A stretch of DNA of 44,675 nt from Candidatus Kapaibacterium sp. Its GTDB lineage: Bacteria; Bacteroidota; Ignavibacteria; Kapaibacteriales; UBA4661. The translations under genes and the position numbers were made by a program. Location of the stretch: assembly GCA_025358765.1 (NCBI GenBank), contig JANYIG010000236.1, positions 1 to 44,675 of the forward strand, given 5' to 3'. Below the pieces are notes generated by a model that saw only the letters and a program-made list of their open reading frames with translations, ran no database searches and was not told where the DNA came from. Positions within the stretch are counted from its first letter, which is position 1, and the number at the start of each line of letters is the position of its first letter. Below are positions 30,744 through 34,775 of the stretch, in pieces.

Positions 30744-32537
30744 ATGCGAATATTTTTTCGACTCTTCGTTGGTAGCGTTTGCTCCTTGCTCCTTGCTACG
30801 TGGGCGTTTGCTCAACAATCACCGCCACCCGTCACTCCTATTGCGCCGCCCCAACAAACTGATGCCGCACAGCAAGCACCGGAGCCACTCACGCTGCAAC
30901 ATGCTGACAGTCTTGTGGGTAGCATGACACCACAGGGCATGGTGCGAGAACTTATTGGCAACGTTGTTTTATTGCAAAATGCCGTTACCGTCACGTGCGA
31001 CCGTGCTATTCACTACATGACACTCAACAAAGCAGATTTGGTTGGCAATGTAGTAATGACCCAAAACACCGTTACGATGAAGGCTCCACGCGGAACGTAC
31101 GACGGCATGGCTCGCATTATTTATGGCTTGCAGGGCGTGTATCTGCAAGACCGTAATACGACGCTCACTGCCCGCGAAGGTGTTTATTCGACAGAAACAC
31201 GGATTGCACGGTTTTACAAAAATGTTCTGGTCGAGAATGACTCGCTCAAAATCTACTCCGATACGCTGGAATACCACCGCGAAACGCAGAACAGCTACGC
31301 CACAGGAACCGTCTCGGCGGCAGGTAAATTCACAAGCGCGTATTTGCAAGGCGATTCGTTAGTGAATATCCCTGATCGGCATTATACACGGGTTTCATGC
31401 TACAAACCCAGCACGAATGCCAGCGTCAGAGCAACGGGCGCGACGCTCAAACTACCCACCGCTACCGCCATCAAAGTATCTACCGCCGCAACCATCAAAA
31501 TGCCGTCAAAGCCTCTCTTAATCAGCCTCGTGCGCCAGCCGATGATAAGTCAAATTGATACGGTGCAAGTCGAAGAAGATATTATTCCTGCGGATTCCCT
31601 CAAACCAGTACCCAACTCGAAAAAAACACCGAAAAAATCTTCGTCAAATTCCGCAATCAGTTCGGCTGCAAATTCGCCGACAAAGCCTGCCAAATCGAAC
31701 ATTCAGACGATTGACTCTCTGTCGCTTCCCATTGCTATGCCCACAAAGCGCATCGTCAATCGCTTGGACACCTTGTGTATCGTGGGCGATGTGCTGGAGG
31801 CTTTCCGGGCGGACAAGCAGGAGCGCTACGTTGCGACGGACAACGTAAAACTCACACGCGGTGGCGGCAAAAGTTCGATTGCTGCCCGCGCTGGAACAGG
31901 AATTTATGAAAAAACGCTCGACCGAATCTGGATGCTCCAAACACCTGTTTTGTGGATTGATTCCACGCAGCTTCGCGGCGATTCCATCCTTATCAACGTC
32001 CGCGAAAAGCGCTTAGAGCGCGTTGTTGCCCACACGAACGCCTTTGCCGCAACGAAAAACGACACCACCCGCCAAGACCGCATTGACCAACTCACGGGCG
32101 ACAACATCATCATCAACACGCAGCAAGACACGCTCCGCTCTATCCTTGCTGAAGGAAAAGCATTTAATCTTTATTTTCTTACGACCGAAGATGATAGTAT
32201 AAAAACAAAAAAAAATGCGGACGGCGCGGCACGAAATGCGGCGGATACCATCAAAATTTGGTTTGACAAAGGTGAACCCGACCGCATTGTATGGCTCGGC
32301 AAAGTTGAAGGCGAGGCGATACCCGAACACATCGTCCAAAAAACACTGGCAGAACTGAAGCTCAAAGGGTTTCAATGGTTCACCAATAAACCACACTTAC
32401 AACGTTTTGATAAGAACGCAAAGCCTCCAAAACCAGTTATTCAAAACAAAGCAGAGACAGTAGTTGTGCCTCTTAAACGCAAAAACGCCTCTAAATCTAC
32501 AGTTCCGCGTATCGGCTCGCCACCAAAAATTCCGTGA
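30744..32537 (+). CDS. OstA/LptA-like domain protein (LPS-transport related)
   Basis: Signal peptide; repeated OstA-like beta units 'LTLQHADSLVGSMTPQGMVRELIGNVVLLQNAVTVTCDRAIHYMTLNKADLVGNVVMTQNTVTMKAPRGTYD', 'ADKQERYVATDNVKLTRGGGKSSIAARAG', 'GDNIIINTQQDTLRSILAEGKAF'. Confidence 0.85.
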   Translation: MRIFFRLFVGSVCSLLLATWAFAQQSPPPVTPIAPPQQTDAAQQAPEPLTLQHADSLVGSMTPQGMVRELIGNVVLLQNAVTVTCDRAIHYMTLNKADLVGNVVMTQNTVTMKAPRGTYDGMARIIYGLQGVYLQDRNTTLTAREGVYSTETRIARFYKNVLVENDSLKIYSDTLEYHRETQNSYATGTVSAAGKFTSAYLQGDSLVNIPDRHYTRVSCYKPSTNASVRATGATLKLPTATAIKVSTAATIKMPSKPLLISLVRQPMISQIDTVQVEEDIIPADSLKPVPNSKKTPKKSSSNSAISSAANSPTKPAKSNIQTIDSLSLPIAMPTKRIVNRLDTLCIVGDVLEAFRADKQERYVATDNVKLTRGGGKSSIAARAGTGIYEKTLDRIWMLQTPVLWIDSTQLRGDSILINVREKRLERVVAHTNAFAATKNDTTRQDRIDQLTGDNIIINTQQDTLRSILAEGKAFNLYFLTTEDDSIKTKKNADGAARNAADTIKIWFDKGEPDRIVWLGKVEGEAIPEHIVQKTLAELKLKGFQWFTNKPHLQRFDKNAKPPKPVIQNKAETVVVPLKRKNASKSTVPRIGSPPKIP

Positions 32538-32620: not shown

Positions 32621-34102
32621 ATGATAGAAATGATAGACACGCATTGCCATATTGACCACAAACAGTTCGATCCAGACCGTGCAGCTATGATAGAACGGGC
32701 ATTCGCCGATGGTATAGAAGCGATGGTTATTCCTGCGATTGAACCTGCACGATTTGATGCTGTGCGTGCGCTTGTTGCCTCCGACCCGCGTATCTATTGC
32801 GGTATGGGCATTCACCCGCATCATGCGACAGAGGCAACAGACGAAGCGCTTGCAGACGTAGAAAAACTGAGCTTTGGTGAACGTGTGCAAGCAATTGGCG
32901 AAATTGGTTTAGATTATCACTACGATTTTGCGCCACGTGATGTGCAGCAAGACGTGTTCCGCAAGCAAATCCGTATTGCGAAACGTCGTAATCTGCCGAT
33001 TATTGTTCACAATCGTGAATCCGACGATGATGTTCTGCGTATTATTCGTGAAGAGCAGGATGCGGCTCATGGAGAACTGCGAGGTGTATTGCATTGTTTT
33101 TCCGGTACGCCGGAACAGGCTGCACAGGCGGTTGCGCTCGGCTTTCATGTTTCGTTCACGGGCAACATCACCTTTAAAAAATCTATGTTGGACGAGACGG
33201 TTCGTTCACTTCCTTTTGACCGCATAATGATGGAGACCGATGCACCATACATGACTCCTGTTCCTTTTCGCGGCAAGCGCAATGAGCCTGCATTCGTGCG
33301 GCTTGTGGCTGAAAAACTTGCCGAAATTCGTTCCACTTCTTTGCAGGAGGTTTTTACCATGACGACCACAACAGCTCAACGTTTTTTCAACCTTCCAATG
33401 CTTACTGTGCTTGCAGTTACAGTATTGATTGTCACGTCGTTTGCAGCTACAGCGCAGACAACAAAACCAGCACAAGAGGAAGACGACGAACCCGCAACCG
33501 AAGCGGTTAATCCCTATCCCAAGAAGATAGGCATTGCGCCAATTTTGGGCAGTAATACTTTTGTTGAATCGTTTCAATCAACCGGACAACGCACGAGCGA
33601 CCGAGGGTTTTTGGGCTTTGGCGGTGGAGTATGGGTTCAACTGAGTGAATCATTCAATCTCGGCGCGTCCTATTTGCGCTACACCAATAACAATCCCACA
33701 AAACTCGACCCCAATACTGGTTTACCACGTCAGGAAAATCCCAACGTTCACGAGAGCATAGATGCCTATATTCAATGGACGTTCAATCCAGCAAACACGA
33801 TTAGTTTCTTTTTACTCGGCGGTCCGACTCGTCTTTCCAACGCCTTTGATTACAACGGTGGCGGCAACGGCAATACGTTTCGTTCGTTTTGGGGTATATT
33901 TGGTGCGTTTGGGTTGGGTGCTAATCTAAAAACTCCCTTGGGCTTGTTTTATCCATCGGCTGAGTTTCGTATTAGCACCTCGTGGGGATTAAGTGAAGAG
34001 CGTAAATATGCGCTTGGCAATAATCGCTTTGAAATATTGACTCAAACAGGCTTCACGTATAGTGTTGCGCGATTTTCACTCTGGTGGTTTCCGAATTTTT
34101 AG
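32621..34102 (+). CDS. TatD-family metal-dependent hydrolase continuing in frame into a signal peptide plus outer-membrane beta-barrel-like protein
   Basis: MIDTHCHIDHKQFD...GMGIHPHHA...AIGEIGLDYHYDF...PIIVHNRES...HCFSGTPEQA...METDAPYMTPVPFRGKRNEPAFVRLVAEKLAEIRSTSLQEVFTMTTTTAQRFFNL is a full TatD. It is followed without stop by PMLTVLAVTVLIVTSFAATAQTTKPAQEEDDEP... and a barrel-like region. Confidence 0.9.
   Translation: MIEMIDTHCHIDHKQFDPDRAAMIERAFADGIEAMVIPAIEPARFDAVRALVASDPRIYCGMGIHPHHATEATDEALADVEKLSFGERVQAIGEIGLDYHYDFAPRDVQQDVFRKQIRIAKRRNLPIIVHNRESDDDVLRIIREEQDAAHGELRGVLHCFSGTPEQAAQAVALGFHVSFTGNITFKKSMLDETVRSLPFDRIMMETDAPYMTPVPFRGKRNEPAFVRLVAEKLAEIRSTSLQEVFTMTTTTAQRFFNLPMLTVLAVTVLIVTSFAATAQTTKPAQEEDDEPATEAVNPYPKKIGIAPILGSNTFVESFQSTGQRTSDRGFLGFGGGVWVQLSESFNLGASYLRYTNNNPTKLDPNTGLPRQENPNVHESIDAYIQWTFNPANTISFFLLGGPTRLSNAFDYNGGGNGNTFRSFWGIFGAFGLGANLKTPLGLFYPSAEFRISTSWGLSEERKYALGNNRFEILTQTGFTYSVARFSLWWFPNF
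33359..34102 (+). CDS. possible separately initiated outer-membrane beta-barrel protein nested in frame in the TatD ORF
   Basis: Internal ATG 33359 preceded by AGGAGG (33345-33350, 8-nt spacer). Product MTTTTAQRFFNLPMLTVLAVTVLIVTSFAATAQTTK... has a signal-peptide-like start; C-terminus ends 'SLWWFPNF'. Confidence 0.6.
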   Translation: MTTTTAQRFFNLPMLTVLAVTVLIVTSFAATAQTTKPAQEEDDEPATEAVNPYPKKIGIAPILGSNTFVESFQSTGQRTSDRGFLGFGGGVWVQLSESFNLGASYLRYTNNNPTKLDPNTGLPRQENPNVHESIDAYIQWTFNPANTISFFLLGGPTRLSNAFDYNGGGNGNTFRSFWGIFGAFGLGANLKTPLGLFYPSAEFRISTSWGLSEERKYALGNNRFEILTQTGFTYSVARFSLWWFPNF

Positions 34103-34151: not shown

Positions 34152-34775
34152 ATGGTCACAGTTCTTGAGCATCCGCTCGTCCAGCGCGACATCACGATTT
34201 TACGCGACAAACTCACGAATACCCAAGAGTTCCGCGCCGCTATGCGTCGCATTGGGCGTGTGCTGGCGTGCGAAGCAGCAAAACATATTGAAGTACGTAA
34301 AGTCACCGTTGAGACACCGCTCGAAATGACTGAAGGATACAAACTTGCCAATGATGTCGTATTACTGCCGGTGCTGCGGGCTGGAAATGGTCTTGTGGAG
34401 CCGTTTACGGACGTGATACCCGATGCAAAAGTGGGCTACATTGGGCTTCGGCGCAATGAGGAAACCCTGCAAACCGAAGAATATTACTATAATGTGCCGG
34501 AACTGCATACAGCCTCATTGGTGATTATCCTCGACCCAATGCTCGCCACCGGAGGGAGTATTTGTACGACCTTGGACAAAATGTTTCACTCATCAGCTAC
34601 GCGCAAATGTGTGGTTGTATCTGTCATCGCCGCGCCGGAAGGTATTCAACGCATTGTTGCCAACCACCCCAATGTTCCCGTTGTGACGGCATCGCTCGAT
34701 CGTTGTTTGAACGATGTTGGTTATATTCTGCCGGGTTTGGGCGATGCTGGCGATCGCTATCACGGCACGATGTAA
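34152..34775 (+). CDS. upp: uracil phosphoribosyltransferase
   Basis: LEHPLVQRDITILRDKLTNTQEFRAAMRRIGRVLACEAAKHI...LPVLRAGNGLVEPF...VIILDPMLATGGSICTTLD...LPGLGDAGDRYHGTM. Confidence 0.97.
   Translation: MVTVLEHPLVQRDITILRDKLTNTQEFRAAMRRIGRVLACEAAKHIEVRKVTVETPLEMTEGYKLANDVVLLPVLRAGNGLVEPFTDVIPDAKVGYIGLRRNEETLQTEEYYYNVPELHTASLVIILDPMLATGGSICTTLDKMFHSSATRKCVVVSVIAAPEGIQRIVANHPNVPVVTASLDRCLNDVGYILPGLGDAGDRYHGTM

Follow-up and report, generated by a model that had tools for sequence, protein, structure and literature searches.

Does a TatD hydrolase gene that runs without a stop codon into an outer-membrane beta-barrel encode one fused protein, or two proteins nested in the same frame? The question is raised by a 44,675-nucleotide (nt) stretch of Candidatus Kapaibacterium sp. 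(contig JANYIG010000236.1 of GenBank assembly GCA_025358765.1), referred to here as the window. We conclude that the locus is probably a same-frame nested gene pair that would yield both a long TatD chain and an internally started barrel precursor. One DNA stretch thus very probably gives rise to two proteins for two compartments. The main features, all on the forward strand, are as follows (aa, amino acids; SD, Shine-Dalgarno sequence).

32621 to 34102, +: single open frame of 493 aa, TatD, signal segment, and outer-membrane barrel (open reading frame [ORF] reading; order-wide homologues)
32633 to 33391, +: TatD_DNase domain, residues 5 to 257 (PF01026, invariant ligands, Foldseek match to 6l25)
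33345 to 33351, +: internal SD, AGGAGGT (sequence; selection seen in relatives)
33359 to 34102, +: candidate nested gene, 247-aa barrel precursor from an internal ATG (SD-ATG, selection, predicted fold)
33359 to 33454, +: predicted signal peptide, formed by the TatD C-terminal helix (n-region MTTTTAQRFFNL) and a hydrophobic segment (site and charge statistics, predicted helix)
33527 to 34093, +: predicted eight-strand outer-membrane beta-barrel; the chain ends just past it in an aromatic (NF) C terminus (AlphaFold2, Foldseek)

The original prediction, made from the sequence of the window alone, described a complete TatD domain continuing without a stop into a signal peptide and a barrel. The 493-aa ORF has no internal stop, and both the profile match and the AlphaFold2 model (mean pLDDT of 90.5 for the whole chain) agree with that description. 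The first half matches PF01026 (TatD_DNase) end to end over residues 5 to 257 (276.8 bits against a cutoff of 27; 2.1e-82) and TIGR00010 (262 against a cutoff of 206), and Foldseek matched it to TatD structures (6l25; TM, 0.95). The metal ligands H8 and H10 (HxH), E94, H130, H158, and D207 are invariant in 45 fused relatives, which implies that the predicted long form, or a product cut from it, would be active. TatD may start at 32621 or at 32630 (MIDTHCH), and neither site has an SD.

In the second half, residues 303 to 491 are predicted to form a beta-barrel of eight long strands (pLDDT mostly >85; 89.3 for the barrel modelled from residue 247). Its Foldseek matches are small outer-membrane barrels, namely, NspA (1p4t; TMt, 0.80), OmpA, Ail, and OmpX. 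The cutoff of PF13505 (OMP_b-brl) was not reached (22.3 bits versus 28.7), and the barrel was not assigned to that family. The window's chain ends in F, and F or W is found at 81 of 117 ends; a terminal F or W is the usual C-terminal mark of substrates of the beta-barrel assembly machinery (BAM). By its predicted fold this is a small NspA/OmpA-like barrel, and our guess is that it most likely serves as a structural or adhesion-type outer-membrane protein.

Between the halves, the last TatD helix continues straight into a second, hydrophobic helix (residues 258 to 276) in the AlphaFold2 model, followed by a short disordered stretch. The hydrophobic segment (residues 258 to 278) ends in ATA followed by Q, and a signal peptidase I cut is predicted after A278, before Q279. 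Among the relatives, Q279 is nearly invariant (Gln at +1 in at least 90%), small residues at −3 and −1 form a signal-peptidase-like site in 120 of 121, and the n-region has a net positive charge in 119 of 121. A precursor begun at the internal start would open with a 12-residue n-region, followed by a hydrophobic core and then a site of the signal peptidase type. The segment as read therefore has what is expected of a signal peptidase I substrate (positive n-region, h-region, small residues at −3/−1, and Q at +1). The Gln after the cut site fits the Q rule described for signal peptidase I substrates of Bacteroidetes, for which Ignavibacterium album has a Q-value of 77% (PMC5837995).

The stop-less junction is a property of the order rather than of this genome. 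TatD was present in all 60 relatives examined (27 genera, including that of the window), with a same-frame barrel in nearly all, and across 127 genomes of the order the fusion was found wherever the region was intact, except in one genome (G001). Of 114 junctions read directly, 113 run through without a stop, in ten families of the order. Two sister families of the same class, f13 and f19 (family and genus labels such as f1 or g3 are those of the genome set searched), also carry TatD, signal segment, and barrel. The alignment of homologous loci called for in the original prediction thus showed the junction to be conserved. For the internal ATG the outcome was divided: it is conserved in most families, and it is missing at its usual position (−5) in the window's nearest relatives and also in f2, f5, and f6.

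In the window, AGGAGG (33345 to 33350) is separated by 8 nt from an in-frame ATG (33359 to 33361; residue 247), as originally reported. The tail usually reads GAG-GTN-NNN-NNN-ATG-ACN in f3, f8, f9, f10, and the window, and an SD-ATG is present in the tail of 84 of the order's 113 fusions. In a bacteria-wide set of 80 TatDs, nearly all from outside the order, three have a tail in which an SD of at least 4 nt precedes an ATG, and L137, one of the three, belongs to the fusions of this order.

The original prediction had cautioned that AGGAGG also encodes the conserved Q-E-V of TatD and might be fortuitous, a caveat that synonymous-codon tests rejected. Among relatives with the ATG (60 in all; 57 rows in the column comparison), the SD base (third base of the codon 9 before the conserved Ala; a synonymous position) is G in 91%, compared with at most 44% in other K/E/Q codon columns, and most of the genes are AT-rich at third positions. 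Only four changes occurred at this base on the tree, and the tree-based comparison of columns controls for relatedness. G was observed at the SD base in 54 of 59 cases, with 15.0 ± 3.3 expected from same-gene codon use. We also ran 200 simulations in which every gene was randomly recoded from its own set of synonymous codons. SDs at the seam ATG numbered 40 of 41 in f3 (null mean, 15.4; maximum, 23), 15 of 15 in f2 (null mean, 2.2; maximum, 6), and 16 of 19 in f8 to f10 (null mean, 5.8; maximum, 12).

The SD and the ATG have also moved together. A second ATG position (−13) lies eight codons upstream of the −5 ATG, with the SD spacing kept. Five of the seven f3 genomes without the −5 ATG have the −13 ATG with GAGGT at a spacing of 8, compared with none of the 41 that have the −5 ATG (Fisher, 1.2e-5); as four of these five come from a single genus, they represent about two independent events. 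The −13 site is used in 15 of 19 f2 genomes, and CGGAG, which takes two synonymous choices, accompanies it in all 15 and is found in none of the other 4. The anti-SD CCTCC was intact wherever the 16S end was found. Ordinary f3 genes are SD-poor (2 of 51 flanks; 11 of 36 with at least 4 nt in 20-kb samples), and mRNA structure is somewhat reduced at the seam, which is weakly supportive. Judged from these sequence comparisons, the internal start with its SD is selected beyond the amino acid sequence in f2, f3, and f8 to f10.

Two trivial origins of the SD were rejected. The synonymous nulls and the comparison with 80 TatDs rule out a chance product of TatD coding, and general codon bias is ruled out since no conserved ATG column other than the seam ATGs showed an SD excess over the synonymous null.

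How would two proteins arise from such a locus? Because the start of the inner gene lies within TatD and shares its frame, no stop is possible between the two, and every ribosome translating TatD would make the long chain. Ribosomes starting at 32621 or 32630 would read through into the barrel, producing TatD joined at its C terminus to a signal-anchor helix and, beyond it, the barrel. At the Sec translocon, the hydrophobic helix of this chain would insert in the N-in/C-out orientation. Cleavage by signal peptidase I ahead of Q279 would then yield two parts: TatD, held on the cytoplasmic face of the inner membrane, and the barrel, set free into the periplasm for BAM. Ribosomes starting at the SD-ATG at 33359 would make only the 247-aa barrel precursor, with the last 12 TatD residues as the signal-peptide n-region. 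Internal initiation would thus add barrel precursor independently of TatD. The production of both products, the cleavage, and the topology are all inferred. A cytoplasmic enzyme ahead of a barrel was initially thought to be topologically odd, an objection that we do not share: an N-in domain before a signal-anchor is not forbidden, as in ToxR-like proteins, in which an N-in cytoplasmic domain precedes a signal-anchor. Of the two possibilities first proposed, a nested gene or a genuine fusion, both hold: the fusion is order-wide, and the internal SD-ATG appears selected in most families.

Several observations weigh against this nested arrangement. The window's eight closest relatives (f1; L002 to L009) lack the SD-ATG, which is also missing in f5, f6, f7, most of f4, and most of f13 and f19, so the internal start is not universal. 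Consequently, selection in the window is not demonstrable within f1, and the claim for the window draws on the perfect AGGAGGT found there and on the other families. The SD-ATG counts come from related lineages and are not phylogenetically independent, and a search for independent pairs with ATG/SD covariation gave only two supported pairs, which have no power. f6 retains the fusion with no tail ATG at all upstream of the hydrophobic segment. In families without the internal SD the long-chain route must suffice. f6 suggests that this route can be enough on its own, unless an SD-less GTG or TTG start is used there. Six f6 loci (L048, L050, L052, L054, L055, and L057) offer a natural experiment on whether the barrel can be supplied by the long chain alone.

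Some of these observations favor another account, in which only the long chain is produced, signal peptidase I divides it into a membrane-tailed TatD and a periplasmic barrel, as in rhizobial FbcH, and the SD in the window is incidental. The f6 and f1 relatives without an SD-ATG keep the fusion, signal segment, and cut site, and Q279 is conserved. We nevertheless consider a polyprotein alone unlikely, as it leaves unexplained the synonymous selection on the SD, the link between SD and ATG, and the turnover between −5 and −13 (f2, f3, f8, f9, and f10).

An uncut bifunctional chain, with TatD tethered to the envelope via the barrel, would account for the conservation of the covalent link throughout the order and for a barrel family that occurs in the phylum sample almost only as a TatD fusion. 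In that sample, the family scores strongly only in the order and f13 and weakly in f19, and a search for unfused barrels gave only weak matches beyond the order, f13, and f19. Such a chain is nonetheless very improbable. An inner-membrane helix of ~19 residues followed by ~25 disordered residues could hardly let the barrel reach BAM, and the signal peptidase sites are conserved. Moreover, the halves are separate in G001, a 70% complete assembly from the window's own family. There, TatD ends in HFFDVK and a stop and is followed directly by the gene that lies downstream of the fusion in the window:

34152 to 34775, +: gene for what we take to be a uracil phosphoribosyltransferase-like protein (also directly 3′ of the separate TatD gene in G001)

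The barrel gene of G001 is found on a different contig, where it has an ATG of its own and encodes a basic n-region and a signal peptide ending in SIA followed by Q. This looks like a secondary split, because all other families of the order carry the fusion; contamination of the G001 bin is possible. As the halves are separate there, neither needs a covalent link to the other. G001 is the only one of the 114 junctions with the ordinary TatD stop that the original prediction had named as evidence against its proposal.

GAGGT lies just ahead of the hydrophobic segment and could act as a ribosome pause site aiding cotranslational targeting of that segment. We give this explanation hardly any credence, since pausing would not require an ATG, whereas the SD tracks the ATG at a fixed spacing across the eight-codon move. 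Loss of the TatD stop by mutation or misassembly in this genome has practically no probability: 113 loci from ten families, as well as f13 and f19, share the junction, which rules it out, and nothing was found in its favor.

Beyond the nested pair, the TatD C terminus is a recurrent fusion point. The f19 fusions contain an extra charged stretch; three of them (L070, L071, and L081) measure 600 to 640 aa, their signal and barrel being separated by a long stretch that is charged and resembles a coiled coil. Families f11, f26, and f27 have plain TatD, and in the sister families f18, f20, f23, f28, and f30 TatD carries a radical-SAM-like C terminus, a domain named from its cysteine motif and not from a profile search (L072 to L078). 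In-frame fusions of TatD to a radical-SAM-like domain also occur in some Geobacter/Deltaproteobacteria and some Myxococcota; L148, L195, L201, and L215 are further loci with this fusion. Directly 5′ of the TatD frame in the window, positions 30744 to 32537 appear to encode an LptA/OstA-like protein of 597 aa that has a signal peptide as well.

Strong SDs in SD-poor genomes have a precedent in rpsU, the gene for bS21. Autoregulation of rpsU through its SD is known in Bacteroidota, with the pattern in Bacteroidia and Chlorobia (PMC9976891), and in Flavobacterium this SD is read mainly by ribosomes without bS21. In f3, rpsU (L247 to L256) has a GTG or TTG start and an SD of at least 5 nt in 9 of 10 genomes (up to AAGGAGGTG), which extends the pattern to this order; the rpsU locus of the window's genome is L235 (G000:C199). 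In both cases, one gene retains a strong SD in genomes that are SD-poor and have an intact anti-SD. Unlike that of rpsU, the SD here sits in coding sequence, from which it would direct translation of a nested gene. There is a slim chance, by this analogy, that internal initiation is tied to ribosome state, with rare SDs read mainly by ribosomes lacking bS21. As f3 rpsU and the nested barrel both have strong SDs, the barrel-to-TatD ratio would then report or respond to bS21-deficient ribosomes, and the locus would be a two-compartment protein switch set by specialized ribosomes.

A soluble enzyme's terminal helix can, on this evidence, turn into the n-region of a signal peptide, and synonymous sites here reveal selection on an internal start, which can be followed as it moves between two positions. 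Annotation likely labels the locus TatD hydrolase, overlooking an outer-membrane protein across an entire order. We know of no case in which the gene of a cytoplasmic enzyme harbors an exported outer-membrane protein throughout an order, and a literature search found no paper on this locus. The conserved same-frame nesting of two unrelated, differently localized proteins appears, as far as we know and could find, to be undescribed.

A close layout is that of FbcH, the rhizobial cytochrome b/c1 polyprotein with an internal signal. As in FbcH, one frame holds an internal signal sequence, with a predicted signal peptidase cut that would give two proteins. The FbcH partners form one complex with the membrane protein first, whereas here a soluble nuclease comes first and the internal start appears selected. 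The locus shares a complete TatD fold, the metal ligands, and a C-terminal fusion point with TatD nucleases and TatD-radical SAM fusions, from which it differs in that the C-terminal partner is a signal peptide and outer-membrane barrel.

Internal in-frame starts yielding a separate C-terminal protein, and differently localized proteoforms, are already known (PMC11899642, PMC11005335). Cas11 is made from internal starts in cas8 and cas10 genes (PMC11899642) and resembles the nested barrel in its conserved in-frame start, its own SD-like signal, and a separate functional C-terminal product. The Cas products share one cytoplasmic complex, whereas TatD and the barrel are unrelated, would occupy different compartments, and include an internal product with a signal peptide. 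Salmonella SseL, PagC, and OmpX form N-terminal proteoform pairs that differ in localization (PMC11005335), likewise with two in-frame starts and an export signal on one form only. In those pairs, isoforms of one protein differ by tens of residues, whereas at this locus a complete 250-aa nuclease would be added in the long form and the short form would be exported.
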